A stretch of DNA of 33,861 nt from Candidatus Tectomicrobia bacterium RIFCSPLOWO2_12_FULL_69_37 (GTDB lineage: Bacteria; UBA8248), in the NCBI GenBank assembly GCA_001790955.1, contig MGDP01000011.1, positions 553 to 34,413 on the forward strand, given 5' to 3'. Below, one piece after another: positions 6,840 to 20,533 of the stretch. The notes beneath the pieces were generated by a model. It ran no database searches. It saw only the letters and a program-made list of their open reading frames with translations, and was not told where the DNA came from. The position numbers and the translations under genes were made by a program. Numbering within the stretch: position 1 is the stretch's first letter; every line of letters starts with the position of its first letter.

Positions 6840-7567
6840 CCTGGGCTCTCCTGGCGCACACCCGTATGAAGCTGGACGATCCCGCCGGTGAGCGGCAGCA
6901 CCGCCACGTTCCCGAAGCCCGCTCCCCGCATCATCTCCGAAAGGGCCTCGGCGGGGGGGAACTCCCCCACCGTCTCGGGCAGGTAACGGTAAGCCGTGGG
7001 GTGGCCCGAGACGAGCCTCCCGACCGCCGGGAGCAGGAATCGGAAGTAGAGCTGGAAGGCCATCCCGAAGAGCCCCGCCGGGTTCCCGAACTCCAGGACG
7101 ACCAGCCGCCCGCCAGGGCGCAGCACCCGCGCCATCTCGGCGAGCCCAGCCGCCCGGTCCTCCAGGTTGCGGAGGCCGAAGACGATGATGACGCCGTCGA
7201 AGACGCCCGGGGGGAAGGGAAGGGCCAGGGCGTCGGCTTGAACAAGACCGATGCCCGCCCGCCGCTGGGCAATCTTCTCCTTCGCCCGGGCGAGCATGGG
7301 GAAGGCGAAATCCACCCCCGTCACCTTGACCCCGGCGCGCGGGCCGAGCTGACGGCGGATTGCAAGAGCGACATCCGCGGTGCCCGTGGCGAGGTCGAGG
7401 AGGCGGCCTTCCGCCCTGCCCCGCAACGCATCGAGCAGGAGGCGCGCCCCCGCCCGCCGCCAGCCCCGGTCGATCCCCAGGCTCAGAAGGCGGTTCAGGA
7501 GGTCGTAGGTCGGGGCGATCTCCCCGAACATCGCCTGAACCGCCCTGCGCTCGATCCGCACGGCCAC
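6836..7567 (-). CDS. ubiE: Demethylmenaquinone/ubiquinone C-methyltransferase (UbiE/MenG)
   Basis: The 243-residue protein is a class I SAM-dependent methyltransferase of the UbiE/COQ5/MenG family. It begins with the family-typical FGEIAPTYDLLNRLLSLGIDRGWRR. The SAM-binding motif is LLDLATGTADVA, the acidic ribose-binding end of strand 2 is TGVDFA, and LPFPPGVFDGV and FGLRNLEDR follow as in E. coli UbiE. It methylates the quinone ring in the last step of menaquinone or ubiquinone synthesis. Its neighbours look like late futalosine-pathway enzymes, which favours menaquinone. The GTG start lies 1 nt after the mqnP stop; a second GTG two codons later is an alternative. The stop overlaps the next start. 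Confidence 0.92.
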   Translation of the reverse strand: MAVRIERRAVQAMFGEIAPTYDLLNRLLSLGIDRGWRRAGARLLLDALRGRAEGRLLDLATGTADVALAIRRQLGPRAGVKVTGVDFAFPMLARAKEKIAQRRAGIGLVQADALALPFPPGVFDGVIIVFGLRNLEDRAAGLAEMARVLRPGGRLVVLEFGNPAGLFGMAFQLYFRFLLPAVGRLVSGHPTAYRYLPETVGEFPPAEALSEMMRGAGFGNVAVLPLTGGIVQLHTGVRQESPG

Positions 7568-7568
7568 G

Positions 7569-8447
7569 TCAGCCCACCGGGATGAAGACGTCCAGGATGG
7601 CCCCCGCCGAGACGACGACGGACACCCAAGCGTTCAGGTTGAAGAAGGAGAGGTTCACGCGGCGGAGGTCCCCCGGGCGGACGATCCAGTGCTCCCAGAA
7701 GAGAAACCCCGCCGCCCCTGCCAGCCCCAGCCAGTAGAGGGTCTTGAGGCCGAGCATCCAGCCCGCCGCGATGAAGCAGGCGACGGTGCCGATGTGGGCC
7801 AGCGCCGAGAGGGCGAGGGCGGGCCCTACCCCCATGCGCTTGGGCAGGGAGTGGAGGCCCTCCTCCTTGTCGAACCCCACGTCCAGGCAGGCGTAGATGA
7901 TGTCGAAGCCCCCCACCCAGAGCGTCACCCCGGCGAAAAGGAGAACCGGCGCCCATCCCAGGTCGCCGCGGACGGCCACCCAGGCCCCCGCCGGGGCGCA
8001 GCCCAGGATCGCACCCAGGAACAGGTGGGTCCAGGAGGTGAAGCGCTTGGAGTAGCTGTAGAAGACCGTCGCCCCGGCTACCACAAAGGAGAGGTAGAAA
8101 GCCAGCGGGTTCAGCATCCAGGCCGAGAGGAGGAGGAGCCCCAGGAAAGCCGCCATCAGGAACCACACCTGCCCCGAGCGCAGGAGGCCCTGGAACTCGG
8201 CGCGGTCCTGGGTCCTCGGATTCTTGGGGTCGAGGTCCCGGTCGGCGAAGCGGTTGAGGGTCATGGCGAAGTTCCGGGCGCCGACCGCCGCCATCACCAT
8301 CCAGAAGAGGGCGCGCGCGGGCGGCACCCCCCCCGCCGCCAACACTCCGCCCATCAGGACAAAGGGCAGGCCGAAGATGGTGTGCTCGAACTTCACCATC
8401 CGGAAAAACAGGCCAGGGCCGCCCGGCAGCGCCCGCTCACCCGCCAA
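7569..8447 (-). CDS. mqnP: UbiA-like polyprenyltransferase, MqnP type (menaquinone biosynthesis)
   Basis: The roughly 292-residue integral membrane protein has about eight or nine helices and both Asp-rich UbiA motifs: NRFADRDLD and DIIYACLDVGFD, which bind the Mg-diphosphate of the prenyl donor. The start FRMVKFEHTIFGLPF, the NPRT segment and the late WIVRPGDLRRVN segment resemble MqnP-type prenyltransferases, which prenylate 1,4-dihydroxy-6-naphthoate in the futalosine menaquinone route, rather than E. coli UbiA. This assignment is by remembered motifs. The TTG start overlaps the ubiD-like stop by 11 bp; an internal ATG 16 codons later (near 8399) is a weaker alternative. It sits between the decarboxylase and methyltransferase genes of the same pathway. 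Confidence 0.88.
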   Translation of the reverse strand: MAGERALPGGPGLFFRMVKFEHTIFGLPFVLMGGVLAAGGVPPARALFWMVMAAVGARNFAMTLNRFADRDLDPKNPRTQDRAEFQGLLRSGQVWFLMAAFLGLLLLSAWMLNPLAFYLSFVVAGATVFYSYSKRFTSWTHLFLGAILGCAPAGAWVAVRGDLGWAPVLLFAGVTLWVGGFDIIYACLDVGFDKEEGLHSLPKRMGVGPALALSALAHIGTVACFIAAGWMLGLKTLYWLGLAGAAGFLFWEHWIVRPGDLRRVNLSFFNLNAWVSVVVSAGAILDVFIPVG

Positions 8448-9900
8448 GGCCGTACTCCCTCCAGCGCCGGGTGACCTGCGCGCGCATCTCCTCGCTCATC
8501 ACGATCTCGCCCGGCCACTCGCGCGCAAAGCCCTCTGTCGCCCACTTACGGGTGCCGTCCACCCCCACCTTGCTGCCCACGTGGGGGAGGAAGGAAGCGT
8601 GCTCGAGCGCGTCCACCGGGCCGTCCACGAAGACGAGATCCCGCCGGGGGTCGATGCTCCCCAGGACCTTCCATGCCACCTCGCTCACGTTGCGGACGTC
8701 CACATCCTCGTCCACGATGACGATCACCTTGGCGAGGGCCATCTGCCCCATCCCCCAGAGCGCGTACATCACCTTGCGCGCCTGATAGGGGAAGGACTTG
8801 CGGATGGAGACGATCACCATGTTGTGGAACACCCCCTCCGCGGGCATGTGCACGTCCACGATCTCGGGGATCTGCATCCGCATGAGGGGGAGGAAGATGC
8901 GCCCTGTGGCGCTTCCCAGCCAGTAGTCCTCCATCGGGGGCCTGCCCACGATGGTGGTGGGGTAGATAGGGCTCCGCCGACGGGTAATGGCTGTGACGTG
9001 GAAGACGGGGTAGTCGTCCGCGAGGGAGTACCACCCGGTGTGGTCCCCGAAGGGCCCCTCGCGCCGCAACTCCCCCGGCTCAAGATAGCCCTCGACCACG
9101 ATGTCCGAGTCGGCGGGAACCTCGACGTCCACCGTCTTGCACTTTACGAGCTCCACGCTCCGCCGACGCAGGAACCCCGCCAGGTTCATCTCGTCGAGCC
9201 CGGGAGGGAGGGGGGCACTCGCCGCGTAGACCAGCACGGGGTCGCCCCCCAGGGCGACCGCCATCTCCATCCGGCGTCCCAGCTTGGTGCTGTCGAGGAA
9301 GTTCTGGGCCCCGTCGTGGTGGAGGTGCATGTGCATCCCGGCGGTCCTCTCGTCGAAGAGCTGGACGCGGTAGAGGCCCACGTTGCGGCGGCCGGTGCGC
9401 GGGTTGCGGGAGTAAATGTGGCCGAAGGTGATGTAGCGGCCCCCGTCCTCGGGCCAGCACTTGAGGGCGGGGATGGAGAAGAGGTCGGGCCGCGCGGTTT
9501 CGATGGTTTCCTGGCAGGGCGCGGAGCCCACCGTCTTGGGCGAAAAGGAGGCCATGCGCGCCAGCTTGGGCAGCATCTTCACCTTCTCGATCAGCCCCTC
9601 GGGAGGTTTGATCTCGAGGAGCTCGGCGATCTCCTCGGCCACCGCGTCCAGGCTCTCGACCCCGAGGACCAGGTTCATCCGCTTCTCGGAGGCATAGGCG
9701 TTGATGAGGACGGGAATATCGTACGCTTTCCCGTCCGGCCCCACTGGGCGCTCGAAAAGGAGGGCCGGACCGCCGCCCTTCACGCTGCGGTCGGCGATTT
9801 CGGTGATCTCGAGCTCGACCGAGACGGGGACCTTCACGCGGTGGAGCTCGCCCGCGCGCTCCAGGGCCTGGACGAATTCGCTGAGGGAGGAGTAGGCCAT
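8437..9900 (-). CDS. ubiD: UbiD-family prenylated-FMN decarboxylase (probable MqnL, menaquinone synthesis)
   Basis: The 487-residue protein is full length for UbiD. Family landmarks are CWPEDGGRYIT around 148-158, NPRTGRRNVGLYR with Arg171 in the active-site region, TAGMHMHLHHDG, and EGPFGDHTGWYS with Glu281, which corresponds to the conserved acid next to the prenylated flavin. These enzymes decarboxylate aromatic acids using prFMN. In the futalosine route the enzyme removes the carboxyl from the prenylated naphthoate, which suits its position directly before a MqnP-type prenyltransferase and UbiE/MenG. The UbiX/MqnM flavin prenyltransferase it needs is not in the window. The ATG is 21 bp after gatC. 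Confidence 0.92.
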   Translation of the reverse strand: MAYSSLSEFVQALERAGELHRVKVPVSVELEITEIADRSVKGGGPALLFERPVGPDGKAYDIPVLINAYASEKRMNLVLGVESLDAVAEEIAELLEIKPPEGLIEKVKMLPKLARMASFSPKTVGSAPCQETIETARPDLFSIPALKCWPEDGGRYITFGHIYSRNPRTGRRNVGLYRVQLFDERTAGMHMHLHHDGAQNFLDSTKLGRRMEMAVALGGDPVLVYAASAPLPPGLDEMNLAGFLRRRSVELVKCKTVDVEVPADSDIVVEGYLEPGELRREGPFGDHTGWYSLADDYPVFHVTAITRRRSPIYPTTIVGRPPMEDYWLGSATGRIFLPLMRMQIPEIVDVHMPAEGVFHNMVIVSIRKSFPYQARKVMYALWGMGQMALAKVIVIVDEDVDVRNVSEVAWKVLGSIDPRRDLVFVDGPVDALEHASFLPHVGSKVGVDGTRKWATEGFAREWPGEIVMSEEMRAQVTRRWREYGLGG

Positions 9901-9921
9901 CGGGGAGGAAAGGCCGGACCG

Positions 9922-10206
9922 CTATTCGATGACCTTGGGGACGCGGAAGTGGCCCTTGAAGAAACTCGGCGCCATCCCCTCCATGTTCCCGATGGGAGAG
10001 TCGGTCACCTCGTCCTTACGGAAGACATTGGTGATCTCCAGGGCGTGGGAGGTCGGGGGCACGTCCCGCGTATCGAGCTCGTTCAGCTTGGAGATGTAGT
10101 CCAGGATGCCGCCCAGCTGGGCGGTGAACTTCTCCACCTCGGCCTCGGAAAGCTCCAGCCGTGCGAGGCGCGAGACATGAAGGACATCCTGCCGTGAAAT
10201 CGCCAT
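9922..10206 (-). CDS. gatC: Aspartyl/glutamyl-tRNA amidotransferase subunit C
   Basis: The 94-residue protein matches GatC throughout: the N-terminal helical part ISRQDVLHVSRLARLELSEAEVEKF, then GGILDYISKLNELDT, and the C-terminal arm with RKDEV and VPKVIE. GatC wraps around GatA and GatB and stabilises the complex that converts Glu-tRNA(Gln) or Asp-tRNA(Asn) to Gln- or Asn-tRNA. gatA and gatB are not adjacent, so subunit C is encoded apart from its partners. The internal ATG at 10206 was preferred over a longer ORF because AAGGAGG, a near-perfect ribosome-binding site, lies about 9 nt upstream and the family starts here. It follows pcrA by 25 bp. Confidence 0.93.
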   Translation of the reverse strand: MAISRQDVLHVSRLARLELSEAEVEKFTAQLGGILDYISKLNELDTRDVPPTSHALEITNVFRKDEVTDSPIGNMEGMAPSFFKGHFRVPKVIE

Positions 10207-10231: not shown

Positions 10232-12534
<2,303 letters not shown>

Positions 12535-12538
<4 letters not shown>

Positions 12539-13329
12539 CGGGGGCGGGGGGTCACCTCCACCCGCGAGGCCTCGGAGCGGATGAGGTGGGCCGGGGGATA
12601 GATGCCCTTGGGTACGTTGGCGTTCGGGGTGACCCAGCAGCCGGGCCCGAGGAGGGTGCCGGGCGAGGTGACGGCGTTGCAGCCGACCTCGGCGTCGTCC
12701 CCCACCACGGCCCCGAACTTGCGAAGGCCAGTGTCAAGGGACTGGCCTTCCACGCGGATGCGGATGCTGCGCGGCTTGCCCTTCCCGCGCTTCTCCTCCT
12801 CGGTGCGGAGCTGGAGGTTGGCGAGCTTGGCCCCGGCGCCGAGGTTGGCGCCGGCCCCGAGCAGGCTGTCCCCCACGTAGGCGAAGTGGCCCGCATCGGC
12901 GTGGTTGAGGAAGAGGCTGTTCTTCACCTCGGTGGCGTGGCCCACGATGGCGTCCGGGCCGATGAGGCAGCTTCCTCTCAGATACGCCCCGTGCCGCAGC
13001 TCCGCTCCCGCGCAGAGGACGGAGGGGCCTTTCACCACAACCCCCGGCTCGATGCGGACGCCCACCTCGATCCGCACTCCGGCGCGGGCGACCCGGAAGC
13101 GGCGCTTCGCAAGGAAGAGCCCCTCGCTAGCGATGAGGCCGTCCTCCACCCGGAGACCTCTCAGATCACTCTCCGTCCCCTCGGGCAGGCCCGGCTCCTC
13201 CACCAGACATTGGGTGAAGGCCTCCAGGTCGCGGACCGCTTCCCACACATGGGCGAGGCCGTCGAAGAGCTCCCGGTGGGGGAACTCCGCCAGCCGGAGA
13301 AAATACGCTGTCGCTGCGGTCACGGACAT
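12535..13329 (-). CDS. Left-handed beta-helix acyltransferase, GlmU acetyltransferase-like (stand-alone)
   Basis: The 264-residue protein has an alpha-helical N-terminus (about 1-55) and then a left-handed parallel beta-helix of imperfect hexapeptide repeats. Residues 133-156 align without gaps to the acetyltransferase core of GlmU and archaeal ST0452. VKNS is followed by AGHFAYVGDS, so His148 occupies the catalytic-base position of glucosamine-1-phosphate N-acetyltransferase. KFGAVVGDDAEVG also matches that domain. There is no nucleotidyltransferase domain. With GlmS and a phosphohexomutase encoded directly upstream, acetylation of GlcN-1-P is the best inferred role; another sugar-phosphate acceptor is possible. 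The ATG at 13329 has GGAG about 9 nt upstream; a GTG six codons earlier is the alternative. Both ends overlap neighbouring genes. Confidence 0.8.
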
Positions 13330-15260
13330 TTTCCCGTCTCCAGCCACCAGCGGCCCAGGTTCGTGAGGGCGAGGCCTTCTTCCGTCTCCTGGATCAGACC
13401 GCCGCGGATCGCTTCCTTCCGGATCCGCTCGGGCCGGACGGCGGCCCCGAAGCGGCCCTCGGCTCCATGCGCCAGCTCGGCGTCGAGCGCGGAAGCGTCC
13501 CGGGGCGCCTCCCCCAGGCTCCTCAGCAGGGCACCTTCCGCCCGGGCATGGGGATCGTCCGCGTCTTTCATCCGAGCCAGGAGCTCCCGCAGGGCGGCCT
13601 GGCCCACCGCCCGCAGGATCTCGTCCCAGTCGGCGGGGCCCCGGAGGGAGATCCCGACCCGCCTCTCCGTCCCCGAGTTCCGCACTCCGATGGTGGCCAG
13701 GGGGCGCCCCCGCGCGTCCTCCATTATCACGTACAGGACGGCGGGATCATCCTGCAAGGGGCTCCAGCGGGGGACGGCGCCGCGCGGGAAACCCTTCTCT
13801 ATCTGCTCCCAGACGGAGCGGGAGACGGCCTCCCAGGCTTCTTCGCCCGGGGCGAAACGGGCGCGGTCCACGTGGTAGGCGTAGAGGGATTTCTTGTAGC
13901 CGCGCGGGAAGGGCTCGGCCAGGACGCCGTAAGCCCCCTTCGCTCCTTTCTCCTCCCCCAGCCAGCGGACGGCGGCGCAGGTGTTGAGGAAGCTCTTGAG
14001 ACCGTCCCCCACCGCGAGGCGGACGACCCGCCCCTCCGCGTCCGCAAGGAGGCCCGGCACCACCGTGTGACCAGACTCCTCGCCGCCGAGGGCGAACTGG
14101 TCTCCCCACCGCTCGGCGGCGCGGAGAATCCACTTGTCCCCCACCGGGGCGAAGACCACCTCCAGCCCGGTTTCCGCGAGGGCGGCGGCGGCGCCCGTAT
14201 CGCTCTCGATGGTGAGCACCGCCTTCCCCTCCTCCGGCAGTTCGCCCTGGGCCGCCAGAAAGCGCGCCTGGAGGACGAGGGCTTCGTCCCCCCCGAGGAC
14301 CCGCACGGCGTCCGCGAAGGGGTCGTAGATGAGGGCGTAGGCGCGATCCCCGTCCGCGTCGAAGACACCCGCGGCAGCGAAGCCCTTGCCGGAGCGGAGA
14401 GCGTCCCTCCGCGCCCGCCCTGTCTCGAAGAGGGCCTCCACGCTCGCGTGGGCGCGGATGAGGCCGTCGTCCTTCCCGGAGACCTCCCGCCGCCCCTCGA
14501 TGGCGATGACGCCGCCTCCTTCGTTCACGGGCCCCTCGCCCAGCCGGTTCACCTCCCGCAGCTCTTCGGGGCCGGCCGGGGCGGCGGCCTCGGCGGCGAG
14601 CCCGCTCCAGGCCCCCCGCGCCGGATCGAGCACCAGCGACCAGCCCGCCAGCTCCCCCTCCCGCAGCCAGCGGTTGGGCAGCTGATGCATGTAGTGGACA
14701 TAGATCGCCCGCGCCTCGGCCCCGGCGTCGATGCACTGGCCCCGCTCCGGGGCGTCCCGGACCTCCTCCCAAGAGACGCCCCACACGCGGGCGCTCACCT
14801 CACCGTCCTCCCCGGGCAGGGGCTTCCGCGCGCCGGGGGAGCAGAGGATCTTGATGCCATTCTGGTCGGCCGGGTTGTGGGAAGCCGTGAGCAGGAGCGC
14901 CCCCGCGGCCCCCGCGGCCTGCAAGTAGACGGCAGCGGCAGGCGTGGGGAGAACCCCCGCTGCCAGCGCGCTCGCCCCGGCCCGGAGAGCGCCCCGGAGG
15001 AGGGCGCCCGCGAACCGGCCCTCCACGTCGCGGGGGTCCCAGGCGAGGAGCACCGCTCCAGGTGAGAGGAGCTCCTCCCCCGCCCGCTCAAGAAGCCAGC
15101 CCGAGGCGGCGAAAGCGTAGTGCTCGGCGAAGGCCTCGGTGAAGAGGCCCCGCTCCGCATAGGCCCGCCGAGCGTCCGCCATTCCCTGGAGAAGAGGGTG
15201 ATCGGGGCTTGCGGCCAAGCCCCGGACGCCGTCCGTCCCCTGAAGCCTCGGACCCTCCAT
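13320..15260 (-). CDS. Alpha-D-phosphohexomutase (candidate phosphoglucosamine mutase) with C-terminal extension
   Basis: The 646-residue protein has the four-domain phosphohexomutase layout. The catalytic phosphoserine loop is TASHNP (Ser127), the Mg site is DADGDR (Asp301, 303, 305), the sugar-binding loop is GGEESGHT (392-399), and the phosphate-binding loop is RNSGTERRV (527-535). Such enzymes interconvert 6-phospho- and 1-phospho-hexoses. Lying between glmS and a GlmU-like acetyltransferase gene, it is the obvious candidate to turn GlcN-6-P into GlcN-1-P, although phosphoglucomutase or phosphomannomutase activity is not excluded. It is about 200 residues longer than usual GlmM. Around 90 extra residues follow the phosphate loop and end in a segment (EGLALTNLGRWWLE) that resembles a winged-helix wing. 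The ATG is 12 bp after the glmS stop. Confidence 0.88.
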   Translation of the reverse strand: MEGPRLQGTDGVRGLAASPDHPLLQGMADARRAYAERGLFTEAFAEHYAFAASGWLLERAGEELLSPGAVLLAWDPRDVEGRFAGALLRGALRAGASALAAGVLPTPAAAVYLQAAGAAGALLLTASHNPADQNGIKILCSPGARKPLPGEDGEVSARVWGVSWEEVRDAPERGQCIDAGAEARAIYVHYMHQLPNRWLREGELAGWSLVLDPARGAWSGLAAEAAAPAGPEELREVNRLGEGPVNEGGGVIAIEGRREVSGKDDGLIRAHASVEALFETGRARRDALRSGKGFAAAGVFDADGDRAYALIYDPFADAVRVLGGDEALVLQARFLAAQGELPEEGKAVLTIESDTGAAAALAETGLEVVFAPVGDKWILRAAERWGDQFALGGEESGHTVVPGLLADAEGRVVRLAVGDGLKSFLNTCAAVRWLGEEKGAKGAYGVLAEPFPRGYKKSLYAYHVDRARFAPGEEAWEAVSRSVWEQIEKGFPRGAVPRWSPLQDDPAVLYVIMEDARGRPLATIGVRNSGTERRVGISLRGPADWDEILRAVGQAALRELLARMKDADDPHARAEGALLRSLGEAPRDASALDAELAHGAEGRFGAAVRPERIRKEAIRGGLIQETEEGLALTNLGRWWLETGKCP

Positions 15261-15272
15261 CCGGCCCGCCGC

Positions 15273-17096
15273 CTAGGCCACGGTCACGGACTTGGCCAGG
15301 GCCCGGGGGCGATCCACGTCCCGCTTGAGAGCCACGGCGAGGAAGTAAGCGAAGAGCTGCCCGGCCACCAGGTGGAGGAAAGGCGCGAGCAAGGAGGAGA
15401 CGCGGGGGAGCACGATCTCCTCGCTGAAGAGGCCCTGGGACGCCTCGTCCCCCTCGAACCGGAAGCCGAGGACGAAGCCGCCCCGCGCGCGCACTTCCTC
15501 GGCGCTGCTCCGGGTGAGGGCGTGGAGCTCCTTCTCCTCGGGCGCGGGCATGAGGACGATGGTGTACATGTTCTCGTCGATCAAGGAGATGGTGCCGTGC
15601 TTGAGGAAGCCCGCGCTCATGCCCTCGGCGTGGAGGTAGGTCACCTCCTTCATCTTGAGGGCGCATTCCAGAGCGGCGGGGTAATAGATGCCCCGGCCGA
15701 GGTAGAGCCAGTTCTTCATCCGCTGGTGCTGCCGGGCCGCCGTGTGGAGGAAGCCGGAGCGCTCGTTCAGCGTCTCGGCGATCCGGTCTCCCAGCGAGGC
15801 CACCTCGTCGCGCAGGAGGAGTACCTCGGCTTCCTCCAGGCTCCCGCTCAGCCGCCCCAGCTCAAGCGAGCTGAGGAGGAGCAGGACGGCCTGGCTCATG
15901 GCGGCCTTGGTGCTGATAACGCAGATCTCCGGCCCCGAACCTTGGAGGATGGGCAGATCCACCGCCCGGACGAGGCTCGATCCCATGACGTTGACGATGG
16001 CGGCCGTCTTCGCACCCTGGCGCTTGGCGTGGCGCACGGCGGTCAGGGTGTCGTAGGTCTCCCCCGACTGGCTGATGGCCACGAGGCAGTCCTCCGGTCC
16101 CATGTCGGCCAAGTGTGGCAGCTCGTCCGTGCTGACGGCGGGGAGGTAGCGCCCGCTGAAGCGGCTGAAGAAGTACTGGCCCATCGCGGCCATGTAGTAG
16201 GTGGTGCCCACCCCGCCGAGAAACGCGAGGCGGGAACCGTGGATCATGCGGGCCACCCCGGCCAAGTCGGACCGGGGAATCCGAAGGGCGGCCTGGACGG
16301 TGGCCGGCTGGTCGTAGATTTCCTTGAGCATGTAGTGGGGATAGCCCCCCCGCCGGGCCATTTCGACATCCCACTCGATCTCGGTCACCTCCTTCGGGAC
16401 GGGCTCCTCCGTCCGGAGGTTCTTGACGGCGTAGCTCTGGCGGGTGACGACAGCGTACTCGCCGTCCTCCAGGATGACGGCCTGCCGGGTATACTCGATG
16501 AAGGCATTGAAGTCCGAACCCACGTAGTTGGCGTCGTCCCCCAGGCCGATGATGAGGGGGCTTTCGCGCTTGCAGCAGAAGATGACGCCCGGTGCGTCCA
16601 CCGAGATAACCGCGAGGGCGAAGGTCCCCTCCAACTCGCGCAGCGCCGCCACGAAGGCCCTCTCGAATTCCCCGGCGCCCTGCTTCAGGTGATGGGCGAT
16701 GAGGTGGGCGATCACTTCGGTGTCGGTCTCCGAGCGGAAGACGGCTCCCGCCTTCCCGAGGCGCTCCCGGATGTCGCGGTAGTTGGAGATGATCCCGTTG
16801 TGGACCACCGCAACGCGCCCGTTGTTGTCGGAATGGGGATGGGCGTTCTCCCGTGTCACTCCGCCGTGGGTGGCCCAGCGGGTGTGGGCGATGCCCACGA
16901 GCCCCTTCATGTCAGTCAGCCTCTCGTTCTGGTTGACCGATTCGACGGTGCCGATGTTCTTGCGGATGTCGAGGGTCCCGTTGCGCTGGACGGCCATGCC
17001 GCAGGAGTCGTAGCCCCGGTACTCGAGGGCCGCGATGCCGCGGAAGAGGCGCTGGGCGATGTTGGTGGAACCTGCCACGCCTGCGATGCCGCACAT
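15273..17096 (-). CDS. glmS: Glutamine-fructose-6-phosphate aminotransferase (isomerizing)
   Basis: The 607-residue GlmS has the standard length. The start was set at the ATG giving Met-Cys-Gly-Ile-Ala-Gly, because the N-terminal Cys must be freed as the glutaminase nucleophile. The longer in-frame start five codons upstream would bury it. EYRGYDSCG and the THTRWATHG-type segment (HTRWATHGGVT) mark the Ntn glutaminase domain. Two SIS sugar-isomerase domains follow, with SQSGETYDT in the first, and the C-terminal LAKSVTVA is the conserved tail. It makes GlcN-6-P from fructose-6-P and glutamine, the first committed step to UDP-GlcNAc. The ATG is 1 nt after the upstream stop, with GGAGA as ribosome-binding site. 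No glmS ribozyme could exist in that 1-nt gap. Confidence 0.97.
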   Translation of the reverse strand: MCGIAGVAGSTNIAQRLFRGIAALEYRGYDSCGMAVQRNGTLDIRKNIGTVESVNQNERLTDMKGLVGIAHTRWATHGGVTRENAHPHSDNNGRVAVVHNGIISNYRDIRERLGKAGAVFRSETDTEVIAHLIAHHLKQGAGEFERAFVAALRELEGTFALAVISVDAPGVIFCCKRESPLIIGLGDDANYVGSDFNAFIEYTRQAVILEDGEYAVVTRQSYAVKNLRTEEPVPKEVTEIEWDVEMARRGGYPHYMLKEIYDQPATVQAALRIPRSDLAGVARMIHGSRLAFLGGVGTTYYMAAMGQYFFSRFSGRYLPAVSTDELPHLADMGPEDCLVAISQSGETYDTLTAVRHAKRQGAKTAAIVNVMGSSLVRAVDLPILQGSGPEICVISTKAAMSQAVLLLLSSLELGRLSGSLEEAEVLLLRDEVASLGDRIAETLNERSGFLHTAARQHQRMKNWLYLGRGIYYPAALECALKMKEVTYLHAEGMSAGFLKHGTISLIDENMYTIVLMPAPEEKELHALTRSSAEEVRARGGFVLGFRFEGDEASQGLFSEEIVLPRVSSLLAPFLHLVAGQLFAYFLAVALKRDVDRPRALAKSVTVA

Positions 17097-17097
17097 C

Positions 17098-18303
17098 TCA
17101 GGATTCTCCACGCGGATAGGTATAGTGGTTCGGAATCACTTCGTGCGGGGCGATCAATGTGCCGGAGGCGAGGGTGTTCGAAGCACCGATGCGGGCGCCA
17201 TCCCCCACGAAGGAGCCGAGCTTCGTCATGCCCGAATCAACATGACCGCCGTTCATCCGGACCCGGACGGTGGGGCCGTCCATGCTCTGGTTGAGGGTCA
17301 TCGCCCCCGAACCCACCCGCACGCCCTCCCCGATCACGCTGTCTCCGATGAAGGAAAGACGCCCCACATGCACCCCGTCGAGGAGGACGCAGTTCTTGAG
17401 CTCGACACCGAAGCCGATCATGGCGTTCGCCCCGATGGCCGTGTAGGGGCGGACGAGAACCCCGTTCCCGAGGAAGGAGCCCTGGCCGATAAAGCAGGGG
17501 CCGAAGATGGAAGCCCCGGACTCGATCACGACGTCCCCCTCGATGCGCACAGGGCCGCGGAATTGGACGGCTCCCCGCAGTTGGACGCTGCCGTCCACCA
17601 CCGCCTCGCGCCAGGTCTCCATCACCATGCGGTTCCCCCGGAGCAGATCCCAGGGATGCTTGGGGTCAAGCCAGGGCTCCTCCCAAATGGCCGACCGCAG
17701 GCCGTCAGTGGCGCTCAGCTCATTGAGGGAGACGTCCATCTCTCTCGTCTCAAGGAGCTCGAACAGCCGATAAGGCATCACAAACACCCCGGCCAGGACG
17801 TAGTTCCCCATCGCCCGCTCGGTGGGCTTCTCCACCAAGCGGGTGATCCGCATGTCCGCGCCCAAATAGACAGTACCGAAGTCCTGCGCCTGCGGAGTGT
17901 GGCAGATAGCCGCCACGGGCTGGTTGAAGGAGCCGAAGGTCTGGGAGACGTGCCGGTAGATGTTGCCCGGAGTGAGGACGTCGGCGTAAACCAGGAGGAA
18001 GGTCTCGCCTGGATGGAAATGCCCCCGTGCGAGGCGGATTGCGTCCCGGATGCCGGCCGGCTCCTTCTGGTGGACATACTGGATGGTCATGCCGTAGGAG
18101 GCGCCCTGGCCGAAGTGCTGGATGATCCGCTGGCTGCAGTGCCCCACCACCATAACCACGTCGCTCACCCCCGCCGCCCGAAGTTTTGGGAGCGCGGACT
18201 CCAGAAGCATCCCCCCCGCCACAGGCAGCATGGCCTTGGGACGGGTTTCGGTGAAGGGGTAGAGGCCGGCGCCCCGGCCAGCCGCGAGGATCAACGCTCT
18301 CAA
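17098..18303 (-). CDS. GlmU/ST0452-like fused nucleotidyltransferase-beta-helix protein with lost signature residues
   Basis: The 401-residue protein has a sugar-1-phosphate nucleotidyltransferase domain (about 1-230) and a left-handed beta-helix (about 240-395), the layout of archaeal bifunctional ST0452 and bacterial GlmU. The start MRALILAAGRGAG matches the G-x-G-T-R-L/M motif except that the essential Arg is Gly13. RPKAMLPV, YAD (Asp108) and EKP (158-160) remain. In the helix, VELKNCV...VGRLSFIGDS aligns without gaps to GlmU/ST0452, but Arg315 sits where the catalytic acetyltransferase His should be. Both classical activities may be impaired, so another substrate, or a structural or regulatory role, is possible. 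The TTG start is required by the domain start and has AGAAGG upstream. It heads the operon containing glmS. Confidence 0.85.
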   Translation of the reverse strand: MRALILAAGRGAGLYPFTETRPKAMLPVAGGMLLESALPKLRAAGVSDVVMVVGHCSQRIIQHFGQGASYGMTIQYVHQKEPAGIRDAIRLARGHFHPGETFLLVYADVLTPGNIYRHVSQTFGSFNQPVAAICHTPQAQDFGTVYLGADMRITRLVEKPTERAMGNYVLAGVFVMPYRLFELLETREMDVSLNELSATDGLRSAIWEEPWLDPKHPWDLLRGNRMVMETWREAVVDGSVQLRGAVQFRGPVRIEGDVVIESGASIFGPCFIGQGSFLGNGVLVRPYTAIGANAMIGFGVELKNCVLLDGVHVGRLSFIGDSVIGEGVRVGSGAMTLNQSMDGPTVRVRMNGGHVDSGMTKLGSFVGDGARIGASNTLASGTLIAPHEVIPNHYTYPRGES

Positions 18304-18369
18304 AGCGGAACCTTCTCTGCGTCGGGCAGAAGAAACCGAACAATTACCGAAAACGGAACAGCCAGCCGG

Positions 18370-18378
18370 ATTATAGCA
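18370..18378 (-). promoter_or_regulatory. Extended -10 promoter for the glm/pcrA/menaquinone operon
   Basis: On the minus strand, TGC-TATAAT is read from 18378 to 18370: a perfect -10 hexamer with the TGn extension. No recognisable -35 is present 16-18 bp upstream, where the DNA is a C tract. Transcription would start near 18363, giving a leader of about 60 nt before the TTG at 18303. It lies in the only sizeable gap (96 bp) on this strand between 6432 and 21884. Confidence 0.55.
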
Positions 18379-18399
18379 GACAGGCGGGGGTCGGGGGGG

Positions 18400-19161
18400 C
18401 TAGTCCATGCGGGCCTCCCAGAGAGCCTGGGCCTGTGCCAATTCCTGGGGGGTATTCACACCGAGGGCCTCTCCCGGGTCGGGAGCCGGATGGGTCGCGA
18501 CGGGCAGGCCCTCCGCCAAGGCGAGGGTGAGGACATCGGGCAGGTAGTACTCTCCCTGCTTGTTCTCGGCCCGCAGGCGGGGCAGGGCCGAGGCGAGGAA
18601 AGGAAGGTCGAAGGCGTAGGTGCCGGTGTTGATCTCCCGTACCCGGCGCTCGGGCTCCGTCGCGTCGGCGTCCTCGACTAACCGGACCAGAGGCCCCTCC
18701 CCTCCCCCCGCCCGCAGCACCCGCCCATAGCCGGCCGGATTCTCCACCAAAGCCGTGAGGACGGCCGCCGCGGCGCCCGCCTTCCGCCGGCGCTCCAGGA
18801 GGTCCCGCAGGGTATCCGCCCGGATTAAGGGGACATCCCCGCACAAGATGAGCACCTCGCCCCGCTTCTGCCCCAGCGCGGCCAGGCCCACGCCGACGGC
18901 GTGGCCAGTCCCCAACCGCTCGGCCTGGATCGCAAAGCGTATATCCGAATCCTCCGGACCGAAGGTGGCCTGGACGGCGTTGGCCTGGTGGCCCACGACG
19001 ATCACGATGGGAGAGGCACCGACCGCCCGGGCTGTTTCAGCCACATGGCGCACCATGGGGACCCCGCCGATGGGGTGAAGCACTTTGGGCAGGGGTGAGC
19101 CCATCCGTTTGCCCTGGCCGGCGGCCAGGATGACTGCCGCGAGCGCGCGGCCGGCGCCCAT
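18400..19161 (-). CDS. Stand-alone GlmU-type UDP-GlcNAc pyrophosphorylase (uridylyltransferase) domain
   Basis: The 253-residue protein equals the N-terminal domain of GlmU only. ILAAGQGKRMGSPLPKVLHP carries the pyrophosphorylase signature with Arg19 and Lys26 in place. ERLGTGHAV, LCGDVPLI (metal Asp), NPAGYGRV, EINTGTYAF, EYYLPDV and GVNTPQELAQA are all GlmU-typical and intact. It should join UTP and GlcNAc-1-P to UDP-GlcNAc. The beta-helix acetyltransferase domain that follows in ordinary GlmU is absent: the reading frame stops 10 residues after the nucleotidyltransferase core. The ATG is 4 bp after the upstream regulator gene, so the two are likely co-transcribed. A stand-alone acetyltransferase is encoded at 12535-13329, and the two could together replace GlmU. 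Confidence 0.88.
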   Translation of the reverse strand: MGAGRALAAVILAAGQGKRMGSPLPKVLHPIGGVPMVRHVAETARAVGASPIVIVVGHQANAVQATFGPEDSDIRFAIQAERLGTGHAVGVGLAALGQKRGEVLILCGDVPLIRADTLRDLLERRRKAGAAAAVLTALVENPAGYGRVLRAGGGEGPLVRLVEDADATEPERRVREINTGTYAFDLPFLASALPRLRAENKQGEYYLPDVLTLALAEGLPVATHPAPDPGEALGVNTPQELAQAQALWEARMD

Positions 19162-19165
19162 GCCG

Positions 19166-20533
19166 TCACTTCCGGCGGGGGCCCCGGCGGCCGGCCGGGG
19201 AGGCGAGGTTCAGTTCCTGGAGCTTGCGGTGGAGGGTGTTGCGGTTCATGCCGAGCAGCTGGGCTGCCTTGAGTTGATTGCCTCCGCTCTCGCGCAGGAT
19301 GAGCTCGAACAATGGCTTCTCCACACTGCGGATGGTGTGGGCGTAGAAGTCGCTGGAGCTCCCCTTGCCCAGGGCGCTGACGACCGCCGCCAAGCGCTCG
19401 CGGAAGAACTCCTCCATCTCCCCCCGGCGCCGCGAGGGAGGAGATGGCGCGAAGTCGTCCACGGAGATAGTCGCTCCCCCGGAAAGAAGGAGGGCACGGC
19501 AGAGGATCATCTCCAGCTCCGACTCATTCCCCCACCAGGGCCGCTCCACCAGGGCTTCCACCGCCCCCGGGGTGAGGGTGCGAGGTTCGAGGCCGAAGCG
19601 CTCGGCGAAGTCGCGCAGGACGGCCCCCGCCAGCTCCGGCAGATCCTTGCGGCGCTCGCGCAGGGTGGGGATCCGCACCGCCAGGCAGCGCCGCTCGTCG
19701 CACAACGCCGGGAGAAGGGAATCCTGGATCAGGCGTTCGGGGTCGATGGTTTCGCACAGGATGAGGCGGAAGTCGGGGCAAGGCGTTTCTTCTAGAACCG
19801 CAGCGGCCAAGCGGGCCTGAAACTCCCGCGGGAGAACCTGCGCCTCTTCGATGAGGAGGGAACCTCCCAGCTCGAGGATCTCCCCCTCCTCTCCCTTCCC
19901 CTTCTCCAGTCGGGCCAGCGCCTTCTCGAAGGCGGGCTGGCGGGCCTGCCTGTGGATGAGCGGATGGCGCTGGCCCGGATGGCGCGCGTGGAGGGCCCGC
20001 GCCACCGCGCCGAAGTCGGCCCCCTTCTCCCCGCGCAGCAGGACGCCCCGGTGCTGGGGGCCGGCCTCGCGGATGGAGCGCCGCAGCCGCTCGGAGGGGG
20101 CGCTGCTCCCAATGAGGATCTCCGACCCCGCCTGCTGGCGCACTTCAGAGCGCAGCCAGCGCACCTCGCGGCGCAGCAGGCCCTCCTCGGCCATCGCGCG
20201 GGCGAAGCCGAATACCTCCTCCGGGTGCACCTCGTCCACGAACACCGAGCGAGCGCCTGCCTTGAGGCCATGGGGGGCCAGGCCCTTGTCGTCCGCCCGC
20301 AGGACCATCCCCACCGTCTTGCCCTGCTCCTCGAAGCGTGGAATGAGAGAGATCTCCCCCCGCGACGCCGGAGCCAGCAGCACTAGACCGCAGCTCTCCA
20401 GGAGCGCCCACGCCCGCTCGGGACCCGGGGCCGTCTCGACCTGGAACCCTCGATCCTCGAGGCCCTCCAGCATGAGCCTCCGCCCCGGCGAGAGAGCGCC
20501 CACGAAGAGCAAGCGGTTTGAGCCGATCGCCAT
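19166..20533 (-). CDS. Degenerate NtrC-like (sigma54 activator-like) regulator with Fis-type HTH
   Basis: The 455-residue protein keeps the NtrC three-part plan but has lost key residues. The receiver-like region (7-120) has VGALS instead of the acidic pair and LVLLAPASRG where the phosphorylated Asp should be. In the AAA+ region, Walker A is GEKGADFG (168-175) instead of GExGTGKE, no GAFTGA loop can be found, and Walker B is GGSLLIEE (223-230). The IPTLRERRKDLPELA segment with the arginine finger region is recognisable. The Fis-like helix-turn-helix at 416-442 (GGNQLKAAQLLGMNRNTLHRKL) is intact. It probably binds DNA but is unlikely to hydrolyse ATP or activate sigma54 in the usual way. It lies between an acyl-CoA ligase gene (13 bp) and glmU-N (4 bp); its targets are unknown. 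Confidence 0.82.
   Translation of the reverse strand: MAIGSNRLLFVGALSPGRRLMLEGLEDRGFQVETAPGPERAWALLESCGLVLLAPASRGEISLIPRFEEQGKTVGMVLRADDKGLAPHGLKAGARSVFVDEVHPEEVFGFARAMAEEGLLRREVRWLRSEVRQQAGSEILIGSSAPSERLRRSIREAGPQHRGVLLRGEKGADFGAVARALHARHPGQRHPLIHRQARQPAFEKALARLEKGKGEEGEILELGGSLLIEEAQVLPREFQARLAAAVLEETPCPDFRLILCETIDPERLIQDSLLPALCDERRCLAVRIPTLRERRKDLPELAGAVLRDFAERFGLEPRTLTPGAVEALVERPWWGNESELEMILCRALLLSGGATISVDDFAPSPPSRRRGEMEEFFRERLAAVVSALGKGSSSDFYAHTIRSVEKPLFELILRESGGNQLKAAQLLGMNRNTLHRKLQELNLASPAGRRGPRRK

Follow-up and report, generated by a model that had tools for sequence, protein, structure and literature searches.

How UDP-N-acetylglucosamine (UDP-GlcNAc) is made where no bifunctional GlmU can be found is the question raised by a gene cluster of Candidatus Tectomicrobia bacterium RIFCSPLOWO2_12_FULL_69_37 (GTDB UBA8248). 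The cluster lies in a 33,861 nt stretch of contig MGDP01000011.1 (hereafter, the window) from assembly GCA_001790955.1, a metagenome-assembled genome (MAG) of 3.3 Mb in 228 contigs (91.6% completeness). Its genes, designated here in the direction of transcription as R, U, F, S, M, A and P, are all encoded on the minus strand. An initial annotation proposed that the locus encodes an unusual split route to UDP-GlcNAc. We consider it likely (a probability of roughly 0.85) that the set is a functional split pathway, in which two single-function enzymes (U and A) stand in for bifunctional GlmU, with F as a likely non-catalytic partner. The proposal is supported by gene content, residue conservation, the absence of canonical glmU from the sequences searched, gene linkage and predicted folds, from which we infer the enzymatic activities, the order of the pathway and the role of F.

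In the predicted pathway, S would convert fructose-6-phosphate to glucosamine-6-phosphate, and M would convert the latter to glucosamine-1-phosphate (GlcN-1-P). Acetylation by A would then yield GlcNAc-1-phosphate, onto which U would transfer UMP from UTP to form UDP-GlcNAc. F may bind the product or an intermediate and adjust the activity of S, A or U. The initial annotation had identified glmS, a phosphohexomutase and the two stand-alone halves of GlmU with their signature residues, all of which were confirmed by open reading frames (ORFs) and profile matches. Judging by these matches, the relationships of the cluster proteins to their families are strong homologies, not chance resemblances.

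The uridylyltransferase half is represented by U (18400..19161), a stand-alone protein of 253 aa with the best NCBIfam match to PRK14355 (E = 3e-80). Its alignment to the bifunctional GlmU profile (TIGR01173) spans positions 2–239 of 452, i.e., the uridylyltransferase half only. Both residues diagnostic of the GlmU N-domain are present, namely the Arg of GxGxR(M/L) and the Lys of PK (GxGxRM...PK in the window, Arg19 and Lys26), and a left-handed beta-helix (LbH) domain is absent, as in the KEGG category K11528. Profile comparison also places U nearer to GlmU proper than to RmlA or GalU. On these grounds, U corresponds to the N-terminal half of bacterial-type GlmU and is a predicted UTP:GlcNAc-1-phosphate uridylyltransferase. 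Constraining stand-alone U to a single clade was neither supported nor rejected (approximately unbiased test, P = 0.16), and the tree did not resolve a single origin.

The acetyltransferase half is represented by A (12535..13329; 264 aa), an LbH protein with a short N-terminal helical extension. A matches the archaeal-type family TIGR03992 (E = 2e-37) over positions 248–393 only, and its match to the bacterial type is far weaker. The catalytic His (His148, numbered from the ATG at 13329) is kept in every A aligned, and further Arg, Lys, Tyr and Asn residues line up with the active site of GlmU. A thus has the fold, the catalytic His and the supporting residues of a GlmU/ST0452-type LbH. Its AlphaFold model, of high confidence (predicted local distance difference test score, pLDDT, 94.1), is a beta-helix with ST0452 of Sulfolobus tokodaii as the nearest solved fold. 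Hence, by sequence comparison, A corresponds to the C-terminal half of archaeal-type GlmU and is a predicted acetyl-CoA:GlcN-1-P acetyltransferase. In a quick tree of beta-helix sequences, A (36 rows) and F (28 rows) fell on opposite sides of a well-supported branch, which indicates that the two are distinct families.

Separate GlmU halves were also observed in other lineages. Six genomes from other bacterial families (G023, G024, G026, G042, G044 and G060) carry the uridylyltransferase half only, at loci L066, L067, L068, L069, L071 and L078, and no F, S or A of the type described here was found within ~8 kb of it (less on one side of L069). In another lineage (L081 in G054, ~7384–10023), a stand-alone acetyltransferase half of bacterial type directly precedes glmS, apparently a different way of dividing GlmU. 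The generalization in the initial annotation that nearly all bacteria use a single bifunctional GlmU is therefore too strong in this part of the tree, as several other families carry only the uridylyltransferase half.

S (15273..17096, with a probable start at MCGIAG at 17096; listed ORF start 17111) is a GlmS, or glutamine–fructose-6-phosphate transaminase, scoring 603 bits against TIGR01135 (cut-off 418) and bearing the catalytic Cys directly after Met. Among 14 genomes searched, the window's genome and most of the 13 others had S as their sole full-length GlmS; a second full copy was present in G063, G067 and G093, and an extra partial match in G005. Two GlmS genes surround F at four loci (L100, L137, L150 and L157), the S type downstream and the second upstream. 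At the Tectomicrobia locus L137 (5085–7193 and 11219–13030), the upstream copy is clearly more canonical than the S type.

M (13320..15260; 646 aa) is a GlmM-like phosphohexomutase with a C-terminal extension. It scored 105.5 bits against TIGR01455 (cut-off 447.55), and none of the 14 genomes encoded a GlmM above this cut-off. The window copy bears the motifs GTDGVRG, TASHNP, DADGDR, GGEESGH and RNSGTE, and the aligned M proteins retain the phosphohexomutase catalytic, metal, sugar and phosphate loops (TASHN, DADGDR, G(G/S)EE(S/T)GH and RNSGTE). M is ~200 aa longer than an ordinary GlmM (profile length 442), and its C-terminal tail (RIRKEAIRGGLIQ...LTxLGRW), conserved between the window, L079 and L095, resembles a small winged-helix domain by eye. 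In L137, S and A are separated not by M but by an apparent DNA methyltransferase and a restriction-endonuclease-like gene (13103–14776).

Canonical GlmU, defined as uridylyltransferase and acetyltransferase domains on one chain with a TIGR01173 score above 366.85 bits, was not detected in the window's genome, where the best match (245.7 bits) covered positions 2–240 only. Nor was it found in any of 18 genomes examined from the same GTDB phylum (including the window's genome), or among 34 genomes accessed via named loci, one of which is a complete Nitrospinaceae chromosome, CP070799 (L095/G069 among the 34 is the same record as phylum genome G005). Of 14 control genomes, 9 gave GlmU above the cut-off in the same searches. 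U and A were each present in 16 of the 18 phylum genomes, the two without them being 67% and 79% complete, and A (28/34) and a strong U match (25/34) were likewise common in the named-locus genomes. The initial annotation had called for a search for a normal glmU elsewhere in the genome and a survey of relatives; the former found none, and the latter revealed the same split throughout.

Relatives with F were mostly Nitrospinota (including Nitrospina), along with Tectomicrobia, Schekmanbacteria, CSSED10-310 and Asgard archaea, and the search also returned some MAGs labelled Nitrospirae or Deltaproteobacteria. The order R-U-F-S-M-A-P is kept in most of the window's family where contigs are long enough, except in L049/L095, where A is not followed by a detected P. 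Nitrospina-like genomes keep R-U-F-S as a block, and M and A are paired elsewhere in those examined; for example, U, F and S are adjacent on CP070799, with M and A together at another site. The tightest link is between F and S: in 63 of the 67 bacterial loci long enough to show it, F has S as its immediate downstream neighbour, a closer linkage than F has with U, M or A. As judged from these genomes, the split GlmU set is lineage-wide and not peculiar to the window's genome.

The third GlmU-related protein, F (17098..18303; 401 aa, TTG start), is a fused, archaeal-type GlmU-like protein, and the initial description of it as degenerate at both signatures is borne out by our alignments. F aligns to TIGR03992 over its full length with 282.8 bits, slightly under the cut-off of 292.1. 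In the window copy, GxGxR of the nucleotidyltransferase (NTase) domain reads GRGAGL (Arg replaced by Gly), the Lys of TRPKAM is retained, and the catalytic His of the LbH is replaced by Arg315. This Arg was found in 26 of 26 sequences of one alignment (A3), Asgard archaea included; F of two other MAGs (L124 and L129) has Gly at the position, and no aligned F has His. The search patterns used for F excluded the catalytic His/Arg position. The NTase Arg is also lost in F of Nitrospinota, and the Lys often is. Asgard F-like proteins (L151, L153–L156 and L158–L161) keep the NTase signature where the N-terminus is present and carry Arg in place of the acetyltransferase His, indicating that the Arg-type beta-helix extends beyond Nitrospinota. 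Based on these alignments, the degeneracy of F is a conserved family trait and not recent decay.

Two CSSED10-310 copies of F (L143 and L147), like the Asgard copies, retain GxGxRL and the following Lys of PK or VK, and the CSSED10-310 genomes in question (F with GTRL...PK) lack U. CSSED10-310 is thus an apparent intermediate, with NTase residues in F and U absent, a pattern that fits F having once been a working nucleotidyltransferase that was retired after U became available. The correlation between absence of U and the residues of F is imperfect, as one Tectomicrobia genome lacks U although its F has lost the Arg.

Of the NTase fold, F retains the metal Asp and the EKP and WxD...PW motifs but not the Arg on the triphosphate side; the retained motifs suggest a remaining capacity to bind a sugar nucleotide. 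Its AlphaFold model, likewise of high confidence (pLDDT 92.7), is nearest to ST0452 among solved folds, with further matches to the GMPPA/GMPPB and VTC1-KJC2 pyrophosphorylase complexes. By analogy with GMPPA, F is probably a non-catalytic regulator or partner, and its tight linkage to glmS suggests that it may control GlmS.

Several observations weigh against a complete split pathway of this kind. U is missing from some F-bearing genomes (CSSED10-310 and one Tectomicrobia MAG), A is missing from others, and most of the genomes surveyed are draft MAGs. The mutase step is the least certain, because M, itself far below the GlmM cut-off, shares most of these genomes with a second phosphohexomutase of more ordinary type, encoded elsewhere, and either of the two may make GlcN-1-P. 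The substrates named here, moreover, are predictions from homology. The cluster might instead make another nucleotide sugar (another amino sugar destined for lipopolysaccharide or capsule), with UDP-GlcNAc supplied by enzymes encoded elsewhere. Two points favour this alternative: ST0452, to which A and F are closest among solved structures, accepts several sugar phosphates, and some genomes encode a second, more canonical GlmS beside S (L137, L100, L150 and L157). Nonetheless, no other GlmU was found in any genome searched, including the complete one, and U resembles GlmU proper more than RmlA or GalU. Activity on other sugars only is also unlikely because the window's genome and most others searched have no full-length GlmS besides S, and overall we regard this alternative as improbable. 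An artefact of assembly or frameshift could in principle split a gene in a MAG of 228 contigs; this explanation is hardly credible here, given that the same separate genes occur in dozens of independent genomes and that the halves differ in both type (U bacterial, A archaeal) and position. It was rejected on the basis of CP070799, a complete chromosome with separate genes and no full-length glmU.

The remaining alternatives concern F. Its full length and its presence throughout the set, together with the two CSSED10-310 genomes that lack U and whose F keeps GTRL...PK, could be explained if F were a working bifunctional enzyme with unusual residues and U and A were accessories. However, the catalytic His is absent from every aligned bacterial and Asgard F, and Nitrospinota F is also without the NTase Arg and often the Lys, whereas U and A retain their catalytic residues; we therefore find it improbable, slightly more so than synthesis of another sugar, that F performs both reactions. 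A different role, compatible with the split pathway and specifying what F does within it, is that of a dead enzyme kept as a UDP-GlcNAc-sensing regulatory subunit of GlmS, and not of U or A, comparable to GlmR but built from a pyrophosphorylase. The adjacency of F and S and the residues that F has kept and lost are in keeping with this role, for which GMPPA/GMPPB (PMC11228364) and GlmR (PMC6171935) provide precedents. Gene adjacency is no proof of contact, however, and F could just as well act on U or A, or enter into mixed trimers with A, so that we advance regulation of GlmS as a tentative suggestion, somewhat short of even odds.

The split pathway can be compared with several known systems. 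Bifunctional GlmU (TIGR01173) catalyzes both of the half-reactions predicted here, and U matches its N-terminal half with signature residues intact, but the activities reside on one chain there and on two chains here, where the acetyltransferase is of archaeal type. ST0452 (TIGR03992) is an archaeal dual sugar-1-phosphate nucleotidylyltransferase/acetyltransferase with both activities on one chain. Compared with ST0452 (PDB 2ggo, 5z09 and 5z0a), A lacks the NTase domain and F lacks the catalytic residues. GMPPA (PDB 7d72 and 7d74) is a non-catalytic paralogue that regulates GMPPB (PMC11228364); like F, whose fold it matches, it combines NTase and beta-helix domains and has lost catalysis, but it is eukaryotic, acts on another sugar nucleotide, and has established ligand binding and contact with the active enzyme, features only inferred for F. 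GlmR of Bacillus, for which activation of GlmS and antagonism by UDP-GlcNAc have both been proposed (PMC6171935), is a functional precedent for GlmS control. The eukaryotic GNA1/AGM1/UAP route also places acetylation and uridylylation on separate proteins. In that route, acetylation precedes the mutase step and the acetyltransferase has another fold. U would fall under K11528, which we take to be the stand-alone UDP-GlcNAc pyrophosphorylase. This category, named beside K04042 in PMC5814848, already recognizes GlmU N-terminal halves alone, but covers nothing of A, F or the operon. In the open-licence literature, we found no published description of the split in Nitrospinota, of GlmU divided in this way, or of the whole arrangement.

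In the window, the genes for U, F, S, M and A lie close together in a single cluster and share one direction. The initial annotation had divided the set over two transcription units; this was not supported, as the genes overlap or almost abut except for a gap of 96 nt between U and F, and a promoter and terminator scan of the window gave no signal exceeding shuffled sequence. Rfam searches (gathering threshold) matched no RNA element in the window, including the U-F gap, and a tRNA search of the window returned none. R (19166..20533), the conserved immediate upstream neighbour of U, encodes an NtrC-like protein with a Fis-type helix-turn-helix and an AAA core that looks degenerate by eye, and is a candidate for a regulator dedicated to these genes. 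In Nitrospina-type loci (L103, L105 and L122), R is represented only by a ~90 aa match to its Fis-like helix-turn-helix end, directly before U and overlapping it slightly. P (10232..12538), the conserved downstream neighbour, encodes a PcrA/UvrD helicase and is probably outside the UDP-GlcNAc pathway.

GlmU is counted among the near-universal enzymes of bacteria and regarded as a target for antibacterials. It appears to be missing from a whole group of marine and groundwater bacteria, major marine nitrite oxidizers among them, in which a mixed set of bacterial- and archaeal-type proteins seems to be used for an essential cell-wall sugar; automated pathway annotation may consequently call UDP-GlcNAc synthesis incomplete in these organisms. 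It is conceivable, though on balance we would not assume it, that Nitrospinota and neighbouring lineages have U and A in place of bifunctional GlmU, combined with F as a dedicated pseudoenzyme that senses UDP-GlcNAc and controls GlmS or both enzymes. Such a system would be a parallel in bacteria to GMPPA/GMPPB, acting at the first committed branch of cell-wall synthesis. With F conserved and disabled, feedback control of GlmS can be tested directly.

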